46,427 nucleotides of DNA from Caldilineales bacterium (GTDB lineage Bacteria > Chloroflexota > Anaerolineae > J102): assembly GCA_019695115.1 (NCBI GenBank), contig JAIBAP010000048.1, forward strand, positions 1 through 46,427, in the 5' to 3' direction. The notes below the pieces were generated by a model. That model made no database searches. It was not told the origin of the DNA and worked only from the letters and a program-made list of their open reading frames with translations. Position 1 is the stretch's first letter; each line of letters starts with the position of its first letter. Of the stretch, positions 41,030-46,427 are shown piece after piece. Made by a program: the position numbers and the translations under genes.

Positions 41030-42436
41030 TCAGACGGCCGTCTGTACGATATCTTGGGGGAGGAAGAAATAGAATCCCGACTCGCCGCCCGCCGCAGCCA
41101 GCGCCTGGCCCAGATCCCGCCCGACCAGCGCGTAGTGCACATCCCACCCCGCGTCTCCGTTCAGCCAGCGATTGCCACGGTCGATCAGCGTCTCCAATGT
41201 GCGCCCGGTCATCGGCTCGCGGCGCCACTTGGCCTCACCGAACAACACCCGTCGCTCCGAGCGGTTGACGGCCACGATGTCGATTTGGGCGTCGCCGCTC
41301 CACCATGACCCGATCTCCTCGAAGCGAAAGGGGATGGCGCCGTCGGCCGAGGCGACGAGCATGTGACGGCGGGCGACCTCTTCCCACACCGGCGCCACAA
41401 TCTGCGGCATGGCCAGACGAATCTGATCGCCGACTTCGTTTTGGCGGCGGCCGATCGCCAGGTAGTCCTCGTTTGGTAGCACCCACTGATGCCAGAAGCG
41501 GAAAAAGGGGTCGCGAAGATGGTAGCTGCCCCAACGATCCGGGTTGCGGGTGCGCTCGACGGCGCGACGATATTCGAGGATGCCCAATTCCACCAGGATG
41601 GACAGGCGATGATCGGCGGTGCGCACGGTCAGGCCCGAAAGCCGGGCGATATCGGCGCGACGATGGCCGCCGCTGGCGATGGCGCGCAAGATGGCAAGGC
41701 TGTCTTCGATGTCGCCATGCAGTTCCTCGTGCAGTTGTAGACGGACTTCGGCAAAGAGACTGCCCTGGGGTGCAAGGATGTGGCGCTTGATATTGGTCAG
41801 GAGGCTGAGCTGCGGGTCGAAGGCGATCAAGTAATCGGGCATCCCGCCCAACACCGCATAGGTCTCGACCAGTTGTTCGGCTGTGTAGTTGGGGAAGAAG
41901 CCGGGCAAATCGCCGATAGCGAGCGGTTTCAGCTCGAAAGGCCAGGTGTGTCGCCGATAGAGCGGCGCGCCAGGGTCGAGCACCTGCTGCTTGATCACGC
42001 TTTGCATCGATCCACTCAGGATCATAAAGATCTGGCTTTGTTGCAGGCGCACATCCCATTCGCGTTGGATTAGCGAGGGCAGTTCGGGGTCGGCTTCGAC
42101 CAGGTAGGGGAATTCGTCGAGCACGACGACAAGACGACGTTGCGCCGCCAGATCGGCGATGACGGCGAAGGCAGCGCCCCAGGAAGGATAGGTGAACGTC
42201 TCGGACGGCGGCGCATCGGCGGCAAAGGTCTGGATGGCGCGCGAAAACTCAGCCAACAGGGTGGCTTTGTCGGCGCGACGGGCGAAGAAGAAGATGCAGG
42301 GCTTGTCTTCCGACCACTCGAAGAGCAGGGCGCTCTTGCCCACGCGCCGGCGGCCATAGAGCACGACGATTTCGGCCCGCCCCTGAGCATAGCGTTCCGA
42401 GAGATAGCTAAGCTCGCGTGTACGCTTGAGAAACAT
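41030..42436 (-). CDS. ATPase of the archaeal-type/DUF234 family with nuclease-like C-terminus
   Basis: A 468-aa protein. The N-terminal P-loop ATPase domain (about 1-215) has Walker A GRRRVGKSA, Walker B LVVVLDEFPYL and an SGSMQS sensor stretch. A winged-helix-like region follows (about 250-310). The C-terminal DUF234-type region has GDAQIDIVAVN...LFGEAKWR, which fits a PD-(D/E)XK nuclease core. The family is common in Archaea and some bacteria; its role is not established (chaperone-like, mobile or defence-related have been proposed). AAGGAG lies before the ATG. An inverted repeat is centred against the -35 region of its promoter, so it may be autoregulated or regulated by a local repressor. 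Confidence 0.9.
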   Translation of the reverse strand: MFLKRTRELSYLSERYAQGRAEIVVLYGRRRVGKSALLFEWSEDKPCIFFFARRADKATLLAEFSRAIQTFAADAPPSETFTYPSWGAAFAVIADLAAQRRLVVVLDEFPYLVEADPELPSLIQREWDVRLQQSQIFMILSGSMQSVIKQQVLDPGAPLYRRHTWPFELKPLAIGDLPGFFPNYTAEQLVETYAVLGGMPDYLIAFDPQLSLLTNIKRHILAPQGSLFAEVRLQLHEELHGDIEDSLAILRAIASGGHRRADIARLSGLTVRTADHRLSILVELGILEYRRAVERTRNPDRWGSYHLRDPFFRFWHQWVLPNEDYLAIGRRQNEVGDQIRLAMPQIVAPVWEEVARRHMLVASADGAIPFRFEEIGSWWSGDAQIDIVAVNRSERRVLFGEAKWRREPMTGRTLETLIDRGNRWLNGDAGWDVHYALVGRDLGQALAAAGGESGFYFFLPQDIVQTAV

Positions 42437-42556: not shown

Positions 42557-44041
42557 TCACCTCACCAGCCGGGCGTACAAGTCCTGCTGCCGGGCGATGG
42601 CGCGCCGGTAGAGGGCGTGCCGTTCGGGGTCAGGCGCGCAGGTGGGGCCGAGCAGGTCGGGGGCGGCGGCGAGGCCGGGCAGGAGTCCCAGGGCTGCGAG
42701 CGCAAGCAGGGCGACGCCGCGGGCGGTGGCTTCGGCGGCCTGGGAGAGTGTGATCGGCCGGCCCAGAGCGTCGGCCATGATCTGCAACCAGGTGAGCGAG
42801 GCCGCCAGGGCGCCGCCGCTGGCGATGATTTGCGCCTCGCCGGGCAGCAACGAGGCGAGCATGTCATAGACGAGGGCGATGCGATAGGCCACGGCTTCCA
42901 TGCCGGCGCGCAGAATATCAAGCGGCGTTGTCCCCAGAGTCAGGCCGTGAATGGTGGCGCGGGCGTCGCCTGCCCAGCCGGGCGCACGCTCACCGGAGAA
43001 GAAGGGGAGGATGGTGAGGCCGTGGCCGTCGGGCGGCAGAGCGGAAAGGGCAGATTCCACCGCTTCCCGGTCGCCCAGCTGCAAGCTCTCGCCCATCCAG
43101 GCGTACACGTTCCCACCCTCGGTCAAAGCCCCGCCCGGCAGCGAGCGCCGTCTATCCACGCGATAGCACCACAGTCCGGGCGGCAGGGTGGGGATGTCGG
43201 TTTCGAGCACGACGCGCAGGGCGGCGGTGGTGCCCACGGTCAGGGCCACGCGACTCGGGCCGGTGGCGCCGCTGCCGATGTTGGCGGCGGCGCCATCGCC
43301 GATGGCCGGGAACCAGGGGACGTGCGTCAGGGCGGGCCAGCGGGCGGCGAAGGCGGGGCGCAAATCAAAACGGGGGCGGTTGAAGTCAGTGAGGGGGGAG
43401 AGATGGAGATTGGAGATTGGAGATTGGGAGAGGAGGGGGGCGTCCCAAATGAGTTGGCGGCGGTCGAGCAGGCCGGTCCACGAGGCAACGTAGTAGCTGA
43501 CGGCGGTCTCGCCGAAGAGTCTGAGTTCGAGGTATTCGCCGATGGAGAGCCAGCGAGCGACCTGGGCGAAACGGGCGGGGTCAGAGCGATGGAGCCAACG
43601 CAGGCGGGCCGGCAGGTAGCTGGGGTGGAAGCGACAGCCGGTGCGCTGGTGGGTTTCGGTTTCGTCGCAGTCGGCGCGCAGGCCGGGGACTTCGCCAGCG
43701 GCGCGGGCATCGGCATAGGTGGTCAGTGGAAAAATGGCGCGGCCGGCGGCGTCGAGACCGAAGATGTTGTTGGCAAAAGTGGCTACGCCGACGCCAACGA
43801 TCGCGCCGGCCAACGGCCCGGCCTGGGCGAGGGCCTGGTCGAGGCAGGCGAAGATGCGTTCGAGCAGCTCGTCGGGGTCGAATTCATGGGCGCCGGGCGG
43901 AGAGGTGCGGGCGATCACAGCCTGCCGGCCTTCCACCACCTCCACCGTGGCGCCCTGGCGGTCGAACAGCAGCGCCCGCACCGAGGAAGAGCCGATGTCG
44001 AGGGCGAGGATGTAGGGAGGCTCTGCCGGCGTCGTCTTCAT
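42557..44041 (-). CDS. FGGY-family carbohydrate kinase
   Basis: A 494-aa cytoplasmic sugar kinase of the gluconokinase/xylulokinase type. The N-terminal ATPase motif is ILALDIGSSSVRALLFD. Other hallmarks are GVGVATFANNIFGLD, LTVGTTAALR, FFSGERAPGW (FGGY signature region) and IIASGGALAASLTWLQIMAD. The start at 44041 (MKTTPAEPPYILALDIG) has an alternative three codons earlier at 44050. Residues near 43402-43428 carry an odd 7-bp repeat (LLSQSPISNLHLSPL). It faces a divergently transcribed SorC regulator and a zinc dehydrogenase, so the three probably handle one sugar or polyol. Which sugar is not decidable. Confidence 0.9.
   Translation of the reverse strand: MKTTPAEPPYILALDIGSSSVRALLFDRQGATVEVVEGRQAVIARTSPPGAHEFDPDELLERIFACLDQALAQAGPLAGAIVGVGVATFANNIFGLDAAGRAIFPLTTYADARAAGEVPGLRADCDETETHQRTGCRFHPSYLPARLRWLHRSDPARFAQVARWLSIGEYLELRLFGETAVSYYVASWTGLLDRRQLIWDAPLLSQSPISNLHLSPLTDFNRPRFDLRPAFAARWPALTHVPWFPAIGDGAAANIGSGATGPSRVALTVGTTAALRVVLETDIPTLPPGLWCYRVDRRRSLPGGALTEGGNVYAWMGESLQLGDREAVESALSALPPDGHGLTILPFFSGERAPGWAGDARATIHGLTLGTTPLDILRAGMEAVAYRIALVYDMLASLLPGEAQIIASGGALAASLTWLQIMADALGRPITLSQAAEATARGVALLALAALGLLPGLAAAPDLLGPTCAPDPERHALYRRAIARQQDLYARLVR
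43402..43428. repeat. 7-bp tandem repeat inside the kinase gene
   Basis: Three perfect units of GGAGATT (43405-43425) with degenerate flanks lie in the kinase coding sequence and give the peptide SQSPISNLH on the minus strand. The unit is of the same kind as the intergenic short repeats. Confidence 0.85.
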
Positions 44042-44053
44042 GGCGGACATGCT

Positions 44054-44154
44054 AACAACATCGGCGTCGCTTCGACAAGACGAGGGTGGGCGGATTGCTG
44101 GGATGGGCGGATTGGGAGGAGATGCCAACAACATCGGCGTCGCTTCGACAAGAC
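44054..44154. repeat. 28-bp direct repeat pair in the divergent promoter region
   Basis: A perfect 28-bp sequence beginning AACAACATCGGCGTCGC lies at 44054-44081 and again at 44127-44154, 73 bp apart. A further four to five matching bases lie before each. The interval between them contains GGATGGGCGGATTG variants. The pair sits between the kinase gene start and the regulator promoter. It is either a pair of regulator sites or a small duplicated element. Confidence 0.9.
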
Positions 44155-44191
44155 TACCAGACGGTCATCTGAAAAGGAGGAGATTCACTTC

Positions 44192-44253
44192 TTGACAACC
44201 GTTGTTGGGGCTGCTATACTATGTGCAATTGCACGATGACTGTGCATTTGCAC
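44192..44253 (+). promoter_or_regulatory. Consensus promoter and two operator boxes of the SorC regulator gene
   Basis: TTGACA (44192-44197), a 17-bp spacer and TATACT (44215-44220), with TGC before the -10, form a near-ideal sigma-70 promoter. Just after it lie two palindromic boxes: GTGCAATTGCAC (44223-44234, perfect) and GTGCATTTGCAC (44242-44253, one mismatched pair), 19 bp centre to centre. They sit at the transcript start and in the early leader, a position for repression by the SorC protein encoded next. Confidence 0.85.
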
Positions 44254-44274
44254 GGCTTTCCTATCCTTCCAACC

Positions 44275-45240
44275 ATGCCCGACCCCGACTTGCACGAACT
44301 GCTGGCAGAAGTGGCGTCGCTCTACTATGAGGAGGAGCGCACGCAAACCGAAATTGCGGCGCGGCTGGGATTGTCGCGAGTCAAGGTCTACCGCTTGCTC
44401 AAGCAGGCGCGCGAAGAACAAGTGGTGGCGATCGTGATCGATTGGCCGATCAAGCGCGATGCCCGGCTGGAACGCGAGCTGTGCCAGCGCTTCGGCCTCA
44501 GCGAGGCGCTGGTCATGCAGTCGATGTCGATGGAACAAGGCGCCAGCCTGCACCAATTGGGGCAGATGGCCGCCCGCTATTTGGAGCAGACGCTGCAAGA
44601 TGGGGCGACGCTGACGGTTTGCCTGGGGCGCTCGACCTACGAGACGATCAATGCCATCCGCCCTGGCTTTCGCGCCCATGTGCATGTGGTTCCGGCCCTG
44701 GGCAGCATGCCCTTCGCCATGCACGAAATGGATAGTGGGGCGCTGGCGCGGAGGCTGGCGCAAAAGCTCGGTGGCGATGTCTTCGATCTGTCGGCGCCGG
44801 CCATGGCCGATAGCGCCGCCGCCGCCGGGGTGCTCCGCAGCCAGCGCGACATCAAACGGGCGCTGGAGGCGGCCGAGAATGCCGATCTGGCGCTGGTGGG
44901 CATCGGCAATCTCGATCCGGTGCAATCTGGCTTTGTGAAGGGCGGGTTCATGACGCCGGAGGGGGCGAAGGCGCTGGTGGAGGCCGGGGCGGTGGGAGAC
45001 ATCGCCGGCCGCATTTTCAGCCTCGATGGCCGCTTGCATGACAATGAGTTCGACGAACGCATCATCGGCATCGGGCTGGAGGCATTACGGCGCATCCCCT
45101 GCACCGTGGCCGTTGCCCTGGGTCTGGAGAAGGCGCGGGCAATCTGCGGTTCATTGCGCTCCGGGGTGGTGAAGGTATTGTGCAGCGATGATCGTACGGC
45201 CAGGGCCGTGCTGGAACTGGAGAACGGTGATGATCGCTAA
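44275..45240 (+). CDS. SorC-family transcriptional regulator of sugar metabolism
   Basis: A 321-aa repressor/activator. A helix-turn-helix at about 22-43 (RTQTEIAARLGLSRVKVYRLL) is followed by the sugar-phosphate-binding SorC/DeoR-like domain (from about 60), with LTVCLGRSTYETI, VPALGSM and ALVGIGNL. The ATG at 44275 is used because the in-frame ATG at 44221 begins right behind the -10 element and cannot be in the message. Two matching palindromes lie between the promoter and this start. The dehydrogenase gene starts inside its last codons (11-bp overlap). It probably senses a phosphorylated sugar made by the divergent FGGY kinase. Confidence 0.9.
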   Translation: MPDPDLHELLAEVASLYYEEERTQTEIAARLGLSRVKVYRLLKQAREEQVVAIVIDWPIKRDARLERELCQRFGLSEALVMQSMSMEQGASLHQLGQMAARYLEQTLQDGATLTVCLGRSTYETINAIRPGFRAHVHVVPALGSMPFAMHEMDSGALARRLAQKLGGDVFDLSAPAMADSAAAAGVLRSQRDIKRALEAAENADLALVGIGNLDPVQSGFVKGGFMTPEGAKALVEAGAVGDIAGRIFSLDGRLHDNEFDERIIGIGLEALRRIPCTVAVALGLEKARAICGSLRSGVVKVLCSDDRTARAVLELENGDDR

Positions 45241-46270
45241 CACGATCGCGTCGATGGTCGTTCCTATTTTCCGGGGCGAAGGCCGGCTGTCATACGAAAC
45301 GCGCCCTGTCCCCACCCTGGCCGCAGCCGATGATGTGATCGTGCAGATCGAAGCCTGTGGCATCTGCGGCACCGACCTCAATATCCTGGCCACGCCGCCC
45401 GCGCACAAAGCCACGCCCGGCATCGTCATCGGGCACGAGGGCGTGGGTGTGGTGGCGGAGGTGGGAAGCGCGGTTTCAGGCTTGCAGCCGGGGGATCGGG
45501 TGGTGATCGCCAATCGCCTGACCTGCGGCCAGTGCGCTTATTGCCGCCGGGGCCTCGACAACCAGTGTACGAACTATCAGACCATCGGCACCACTGTCGA
45601 TGGCGCCTTCGCTCCCTACCTGCGGGCGCCGGCGCGGGCGCTGTGGCAGATCTCGCCGGCTGTGCCGCGCGACGATGCCGCCCTGTTCGAGCCGCTGGCC
45701 TGCGCCGTTGGCGCCGTCAAGCGGGCGCCCTTCCAGGCCGGCGACCATGTGGCCATCATCGGAGCTGGGCCGATGGGTCTGCTTTTCGCCCTGCTCTATC
45801 GGACGATGGGCGCCGGCAAGATCATCGTCATCGACCTTGCGCCCTACCGGCTCGATTTCGCCCGTGATCTGGGGGTCGATGCGGCTGTGAATGCTGCTGA
45901 GATCGATGTATCTGCCGAAGTCAAACGGCTGACCAGCCTCGGCGCCGACATCGTCGTGGATGCGGTCGGCAACCAGATGGCACAGGCGATCCGGTTGGCG
46001 CGCCGTGGCGGGCAGATCATTCTCTTTGGTCTGCGCCCGCATGATAACCCACCTGTCAACCAGTATACGATCACACGCTACGACCTCACCATCCACGGCA
46101 CGTTCGTCGGCCTGCATCCTTTCGCCCAGACGATTCAGCTGCTCGAAAGTGGGCGCTTGCAGCCGTCGGCGATCATCACGCATCGCTTACCGTTGTCGGA
46201 ACTACAGCGCGGCGTCGAGCTGATGCGCACGCAACAGGCGATGAAGGTATTGATCGAGATGGAGAGGTAG
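45230..46270 (+). CDS. Zinc-dependent medium-chain dehydrogenase (polyol/sugar type)
   Basis: A 346-aa MDR-family oxidoreductase using NAD(P). Catalytic zinc ligands fit Cys46 (GICGTD) and His69/Glu70 (GHEG). The structural zinc Cys set is Cys99, Cys102, Cys105 and Cys113 (CGQCAYCRRG...C). The Rossmann motif is IIGAGPMG. This matches sorbitol/threonine-type dehydrogenases, which oxidise a secondary alcohol of a polyol. The ATG at 45230 has GGAG 7 bases upstream and overlaps the regulator gene by 11 bp, so the two are co-transcribed. With the FGGY kinase it gives a polyol-to-ketose-to-phosphate route; the exact substrate is inference. Confidence 0.9.
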   Translation: MIANTIASMVVPIFRGEGRLSYETRPVPTLAAADDVIVQIEACGICGTDLNILATPPAHKATPGIVIGHEGVGVVAEVGSAVSGLQPGDRVVIANRLTCGQCAYCRRGLDNQCTNYQTIGTTVDGAFAPYLRAPARALWQISPAVPRDDAALFEPLACAVGAVKRAPFQAGDHVAIIGAGPMGLLFALLYRTMGAGKIIVIDLAPYRLDFARDLGVDAAVNAAEIDVSAEVKRLTSLGADIVVDAVGNQMAQAIRLARRGGQIILFGLRPHDNPPVNQYTITRYDLTIHGTFVGLHPFAQTIQLLESGRLQPSAIITHRLPLSELQRGVELMRTQQAMKVLIEMER

Positions 46271-46289
46271 GCCGGGAAGTCGATCAGTC

Positions 46290-46315
46290 ATTGGTAATTA
46301 GTAATTGGTAATTCT
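46290..46315. repeat. Short TAATT(A/G)GTAATT repeats after the dehydrogenase gene
   Basis: ATTGGTAATTAGTAATTGGTAATT is made of 7-bp units of the same kind as the AT-rich repeat at 24850-24900. It lies in the 137-bp gap before the last gene. Confidence 0.7.
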
Positions 46316-46407
46316 TTAGTTTCCGCTAAGTGCTGACGTGACAAAGGCGGCTGGATGGTTCATGATTGCAGGAAACCATTCCCACAAGCTCCTGCAAGGA
46401 GAGAACC

Positions 46408-46427
46408 ATGCCAACCGCCGTACGAGA
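46408..46427 (+). CDS. Start of a gene cut off by the window end
   Basis: ATG at 46408 follows a strong AAGGAG ribosome binding site at about 9 bases. Only MPTAVR is seen before the edge, so neither length nor function can be judged. It lies on the same strand as the dehydrogenase after a 137-bp gap and may belong to the same sugar locus. Confidence 0.5.

Follow-up and report, generated by a model that had tools for sequence, protein, structure and literature searches.

Which protein would act on a near-consensus promoter that runs directly into two palindromes, and which genes would it control? This question is raised by a locus in the genome of a Caldilineales bacterium (5,986,056 bases, 5.99 Mb; 135 contigs), located on contig C48, the whole of which, 46,427 nucleotides, was analyzed and is called the window here. 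The promoter lies on the plus strand and consists of the −35 element TTGACA (44192–44197), found by direct reading and by the scanner, and the −10 element TATACT (44215–44220), which was found by the promoter scan and follows after a 17-bp spacer with TG ahead of it. At 44192–44220, 11 of 12 positions match the consensus. Scanning of 43500–46427 returned five promoter sites compared to 0.9 in shuffles, and the site at 44192 was the best by two matches. Box 1, GTGCAATTGCAC (44223–44234), starts 2 bp past the −10 element and is fully palindromic; box 2, GTGCATTTGCAC (44242–44253), lies in the 5′ leader and is palindromic except for the central pair. The first-pass annotation had described this near-consensus promoter and its twin palindromes exactly, as confirmed by direct reading and scanners, and the spacing of 19 bp given there holds as the distance from start to start, with 7 bp between the boxes.

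Judged from the −10 element, the transcript should start at about 44227, within box 1. As the −10 element ends at 44220, a SorC start codon at the ATG at 44221 would precede the transcript start. Also, the conserved protein begins at 44275 (MPDPDLHELLAEV compared to MPDSGLHELLAEV in the relative G001); therefore, the start codon already favored by the first-pass annotation, 44275, was retained. A third in-frame ATG at 44236, not mentioned there, is absent from the compared G001 sequence. On reading the sequence, no ribosome-binding sequence was evident before 44275. Further upstream, a 40-base direct repeat with 93% identity (44042–44081 and 44115–44154) was observed in the gap that leads from the SorC promoter to the divergent FGGY kinase gene; one copy overlaps the kinase start. 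The kinase gene itself (42557–44050, minus strand) is not supported as a target of the operator, because the only matching kinases in the neighborhood of the G001 and G008 operons are 27–28% identical and lie kilobases from the SorC gene.

Palindromes in a leader could also act as RNA hairpins, i.e. as an attenuator or terminator, instead of as DNA operators, and CTGTGCATTTGCACGG, followed by a short T-rich tail, was indeed classed as terminator-like by the scanner. However, there is no real T run, and transcription would begin within box 1, whose hairpin then could not form. The folding predicted for the leader does not surpass that of shuffled sequences (z −0.74; 51 of 200 shuffles were equally good), and an attenuator was rejected for this reason. 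In addition, the letters of the boxes follow the recognition helix encoded by the adjacent gene, as described below. RNA hairpins are thus a very improbable explanation of the boxes.

The gene directly behind the boxes (44275–45240, plus strand) is the only SorC gene in the genome. Its product P0001 (321 amino acids) comprises an HTH and a PF04198 sugar-binding domain, the latter scoring 208 bits compared to a cut-off of 27 over residues 59–314. It could be aligned over nearly the full length to DeoR (8r7y), LsrR (4go1), and SorC (2w48). This end-to-end alignment leaves a short N-terminal HTH of 50–60 residues without the winged HTH of CggR type, and CggR chains match P0001 only from residue 65, that is, in the sugar-binding domain. 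R35 and R40 of P0001 align to the DNA-contacting R34 and R39 of DeoR, for which PMC11229326 describes base contacts in the DeoR-DNA complex. PF04198, the short HTH, and the conserved DNA-contacting arginines place P0001 in the SorC/DeoR subfamily. Between the two arginines, V36-K37 of the recognition helix SRVKVYR (codons at 44380–44385, plus strand) align to P35-T36 of DeoR, beside the base-contacting R34 (residue numbers counted by hand), and these are the residues that accompany the GTGCA half-site. Since P0001 scored below the cut-offs of the NCBIfam equivalogs for DeoR (NF053881, 181.6 of 420 bits) and LsrR (NF011947, 144.1 of 486 bits), it is, by these scores, neither DeoR nor LsrR itself.

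A search for the same box elsewhere in the genome, suggested beforehand as a check, gave a regulon of one operator. GTGCAWWTGCAC occurs at only two places in the whole genome, both at the 44192–44253 locus, and the reversed control yielded 0. When the outer bases were relaxed (GWGCAWWTGCWC), three extra single sites appeared (on C33, C69, and C98); all of them are inside open reading frames and were taken as chance occurrences, not as members of the regulon. With two mismatches allowed, 10 boxes were counted in the window compared to 7.1 in shuffles, which is no enrichment, and it is therefore the exact form of the box that matters. This frequency of loose boxes would suit chance palindromes near a promoter, but two exact boxes in 6 Mb, placed 19 bp apart and kept in five relatives, reduce the probability of chance to a negligible level. 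When up to one mismatch was allowed, the remaining half of the operon (L054, see below) yielded only two sites, with centres unlike those of the twin boxes and neither of them paired. A double-box search with up to three mismatches in 400 genomes of the phylum returned the 44192–44253 site and two others; the latter have no SorC gene in the surrounding 2.7–3.0 kb and were counted as chance.

Alternatively, the boxes could belong to another regulator, for example a CRP/FNR-like or global factor, with the SorC gene being merely one target. The form TGTGCA...TGCACA resembles in outline other bacterial regulator dyads. Against this, the boxes are found at one place only, beside the only SorC gene of the genome, and they adjoin the SorC ortholog in each relative, so another regulator is very unlikely.

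The closest orthologs of P0001 are encoded in G001 (79% identity, same genus), G482 (68%; the genome of JACFMY010000071.1, Caldilineaceae), G008 (59%), G483 (53%), and G484 (51% for this copy; the genome of JAFLCG010000001.1). Comparison of these five SorC operons with that of the window revealed TTGACA in all six promoters, in each case with box 1 at 31–32 bp from the first base of the −35 element. The boxes are spaced by 19 bp in five promoters and by 20 bp in the sixth, that of G484. The −10 element is TATACT or TAGACT in G001, G008, and G482, and weaker in G483 and G484. Summed over the six promoters, mismatches to GTGCA amount to 9 in the outer left, 1 in the inner left, 1 in the inner right, and 3 in the outer right half-site. 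Four of the five relatives deviate in outer half-sites; the fifth, G482, has one mismatch in each inner half-site. By these sums, selection holds the inner inverted repeat TGCAC-N7-8-GTGCA hardest. The G483 cluster of SorC, ROK, activase, and glycyl radical enzyme genes (L215, JARLGF010000153.1), with the same promoter and boxes, was found in a metagenome-assembled genome labelled Terracidiphilus, which would point to horizontal transfer or, alternatively, to a bin that is mislabelled or mixed.

Whether box letters follow the recognition helix was surveyed in the regions upstream of 133 SorC genes, comprising 66 from the class and 67 from a held-out set of named genomes. The first set represents distinct regions from 96 matching loci after duplicates and too-short regions were dropped, and the held-out set was kept from 80 regions, of which 12 were duplicates and one was too short. 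GTGCANNTGCAC with at most one mismatch was present within 160 bp of 7 of the 26 SRVK genes and of none of the 107 others (Fisher 5e-6, a value that ignores relatedness and overstates independence, since the seven box genes span five genera at most). Exact CACANNTGTG was found upstream of 22 of 61 SRS-type genes and of none of the 72 others, and SRIK genes show GATCA, GTTCA, or GAACA boxes by eye. Of the SRVK genes, 19 have no box within 160 bp; most of these are preceded, by eye, by coding-like sequence that runs to a stop codon just ahead of the gene, and they probably do not have a promoter of their own. Evidence against a helix code comes from L196 (the same gene as in L224), which has the helix SRVKVYRLL and an apparent upstream gap, yet no box. 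Also, common descent alone could account for the link between helix and box. Two further genes with the helix SRVKVSRLL (L064 and L097, from G033 and G096) carry GTGCATTTGCAC boxes 18 bp apart, and their proteins are 38–39% identical to P0001.

The spacing of boxes was analyzed in the same regions with a score for pairs of 14-bp palindromes built from four like half-sites. Because this test was devised after the pattern had been noticed by eye in the first set, the held-out set provides the fair test. In the first set, 19 bp was the commonest best spacing (14 of 66 regions), and a score of at least 29 was reached at 19 bp in 10 of 66 regions, with 0.06 expected per spacing. In the held-out set, 6 of 67 regions scored at least 28 at 19 bp (0.43 expected; next best spacing 2), two of these six being relatives of the window operon; at a score of at least 30, there were 2 at 19 bp compared to 0.08 expected, with several other spacings at 1. 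L007, one of seven first-set cases with at least 30, and L156, one of the six held-out cases, resemble G+C-rich terminator hairpins. A SorC gene of Enterococcus avium (L197) has twin boxes with a spacing of 19 bp, too. Outside the class, the 19-bp rule thus seems likely but is not proven. Computed from the operator sequences printed in PMC11229326, the spacing is 20 bp for CggR and 22 bp for DeoR. In the open papers searched, neither a 19-bp twin-box rule nor a helix code for SorC proteins was found.

With a probability of roughly 87%, the two boxes are the operator by which SorC controls its own gene and the sugar-breakdown operon as an autorepressor. The proposal of the first-pass annotation that the boxes are candidate sites for the SorC protein gains support from the promoter and boxes kept in five related operons, from the helix-box link over 133 upstream regions, and from a geometry in keeping with that of solved operators in the SorC family. 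We infer binding of the protein encoded at 44275–45240 to both boxes as one operator with four GTGCA half-sites, with one SorC dimer on each box. Via their sugar-binding domains, the two dimers would be joined to a tetramer that covers a single DNA segment from about −4 to +27. Such a tetramer would straddle the transcript start and keep RNA polymerase from loading or leaving, so that the SorC gene and the operon behind it would be repressed, until a sugar phosphate or a related pathway product releases SorC.

This model can be compared with three known systems. The DeoR protein of Bacillus subtilis, which acts at the dra-nupC-pdp operator, has the same domain order as P0001 (alignment over residues 3–313), and according to PMC11229326 it binds a two-half operator as a tetramer, a dimer of dimers. 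The operator here likewise has two halves, 19 bp apart, on which P0001 would form its tetramer. In the DeoR operator, located at −60 to −21, the boxes are 16 bp long, carry TTGAACA half-sites, and are spaced by 22 bp; those of the window, located at the transcript start, are 14 bp long, carry TGTGCA half-sites, and are spaced by 19 bp. The recognition helix is SRPTVSR in DeoR and SRVKVYR in P0001. B. subtilis CggR, of the SorC/CggR subfamily and acting at the gapA operator, offers, like the model proposed for P0001, an autoregulated first gene of an operon, an operator downstream of the promoter, and a tetramer on two palindromic halves; its spacing is 20 bp. Unlike P0001 with its short HTH, CggR carries a winged HTH that spans about 100 residues, as given in PMC11229326. 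Escherichia coli LsrR shares the domains of P0001, and its helix TRLKVSR has a lysine at the position of K37, but LsrR controls autoinducer-2 genes. In the lsrR-lsrA intergenic region, the search found no 19-bp twin box, the best arrangements having other spacings, and LsrR was therefore rejected as a case with the same operator grammar.

The boxes might bind SorC with a different outcome, the protein mainly activating transcription or box 2 serving as an elongation roadblock instead of a block of initiation. The position of the boxes does vary in the family: by eye, twin boxes of other SorC genes of the class (L017, L029) lie upstream of or over the −35 element, and the CggR operator is located at +32 to +77 according to PMC11229326. 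In the aligned relatives, however, box 1 starts 2–3 bp after the −10 element, which is the classical position of a repressor. Near-consensus promoters seldom need an activator, which argues against activation. Hence we consider activation or a roadblock unlikely and autorepression the preferred reading.

The genes that would be repressed together with SorC begin with a zinc-dependent dehydrogenase, P0002 (PF08240 and PF00107; 45230–46270, plus strand), whose first 11 bases are shared with the 3′ end of the SorC gene. The dehydrogenase gene also follows SorC in G001, G008, and G482. The window ends 157 bases past this gene, and the end of contig C47 carries the remaining operon genes in the expected order and direction: an epimerase-like protein (88% identity to G001), a Gfo/Idh protein (81%), an ABC binding protein and two permeases, a GMC oxidoreductase (79%), a glycyl radical enzyme (80%) and its activase, an HbpS-like protein, and an ROK kinase. 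C48 and C47 presumably form one operon, their adjacency being deduced from gene order. At both contig ends, namely at 46285–46340 of the window and in the last 250 bases of L054, there are runs of TAATTACTAATT-like repeats, which are the likely cause of the assembly break. On the other side of the locus, an ATPase_2 and DUF234 protein is encoded beside sugar genes (41030–42436, minus strand).

Among the relatives, the operon is conserved with varying gene content. In G001, all genes point one way and encode SorC, the zinc dehydrogenase, a PF00834 epimerase-like protein, a Gfo/Idh/MocA dehydrogenase, the GMC oxidoreductase, the glycyl radical enzyme, a radical-SAM activase, and the ROK kinase. 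The order is SorC, dehydrogenase, GMC, HbpS-like, ROK, activase, and glycyl radical enzyme in G008, and SorC, ROK, activase, and glycyl radical enzyme in G483. G482 has SorC, dehydrogenase, epimerase-like, Gfo/Idh, GMC, and ROK up to the contig end, and G484 has SorC, epimerase-like, Gfo/Idh, a solute-binding protein, GMC, and HbpS-like.

Some information on the substrate comes from the glycyl radical enzyme of G001 (P0006 of that genome; PF02901 and PF01228), whose closest solved relative is E. coli PflD (8yjo, 744 bits; next 653; YbiW 488). It reached 831 of 1109 bits with the closest NCBIfam equivalog, NF007437 (PRK09983), and is thus below the cut-off. According to the review PMC12441222, YbiW acts on 1,5-anhydroglucitol 6-phosphate and PflD on 1,5-anhydromannitol 6-phosphate, and cleavage by either enzyme yields 1-deoxyfructose 6-phosphate. 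The same review states that the sugar enters E. coli by a PTS, whereas here an ABC transporter and an ROK kinase accompany the enzyme. The Gfo/Idh/MocA protein has its best solved match in 6a3f, which is named only a putative dehydrogenase, and its best NCBIfam model is levoglucosan dehydrogenase (278 of 650 bits, well below the cut-off). Because of the PflD-like enzyme and this levoglucosan dehydrogenase-like protein, our guess is that the operon encodes an anhydrosugar or anhydrohexitol phosphate pathway and that one of its phosphates is the SorC effector. No match to the glycyl radical enzyme was found in the genomes of G482 and G484, both of which have the SorC operon; therefore, the core of the pathway may not need this enzyme. 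A strict tie of the enzyme to SorC was rejected, as G021 carries it on a 9,980-base contig without SorC. This contig (C32, L213) encodes a PflD-like enzyme 69% identical to that of G008, and nine matches to the enzyme were found in G021.

Taken as a single case, the locus is a well-supported and unusually clean instance of a type of switch that is already known, and a general rule for DNA recognition in the SorC family is hinted at. Tentatively, and with somewhat less than an even chance of being right, we propose an operator grammar for the SorC/DeoR type in which two 14-bp palindromes lie mostly 19 bp apart, the outer half-sites are dispensable and the inner ones near-invariant, and the letters are set by the two helix residues after SR (VK for GTGCA, S-x for TCACA, IK for GATCA or GTTCA). 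This grammar would expose the SorC-controlled operon of the lineage, whose gene content varies and by which, in several genomes, a PflD-like glycyl radical enzyme would be coupled to oxidoreductases of the anhydrosugar type. SorC regulators are widespread, and in PMC11229326 (2024) two complexes with DNA are put forward as the first comprehensive picture of how they bind. The locus adds a clean and strongly conserved candidate operator with all four half-sites visible and a defined promoter geometry, and it ties the letters of the operator to two residues of the helix, a link open to testing by residue swaps. If the grammar is true, operators and regulons of many uncharacterized SorC proteins would become predictable. 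The locus also marks a conserved operon among uncultured Chloroflexota relatives.
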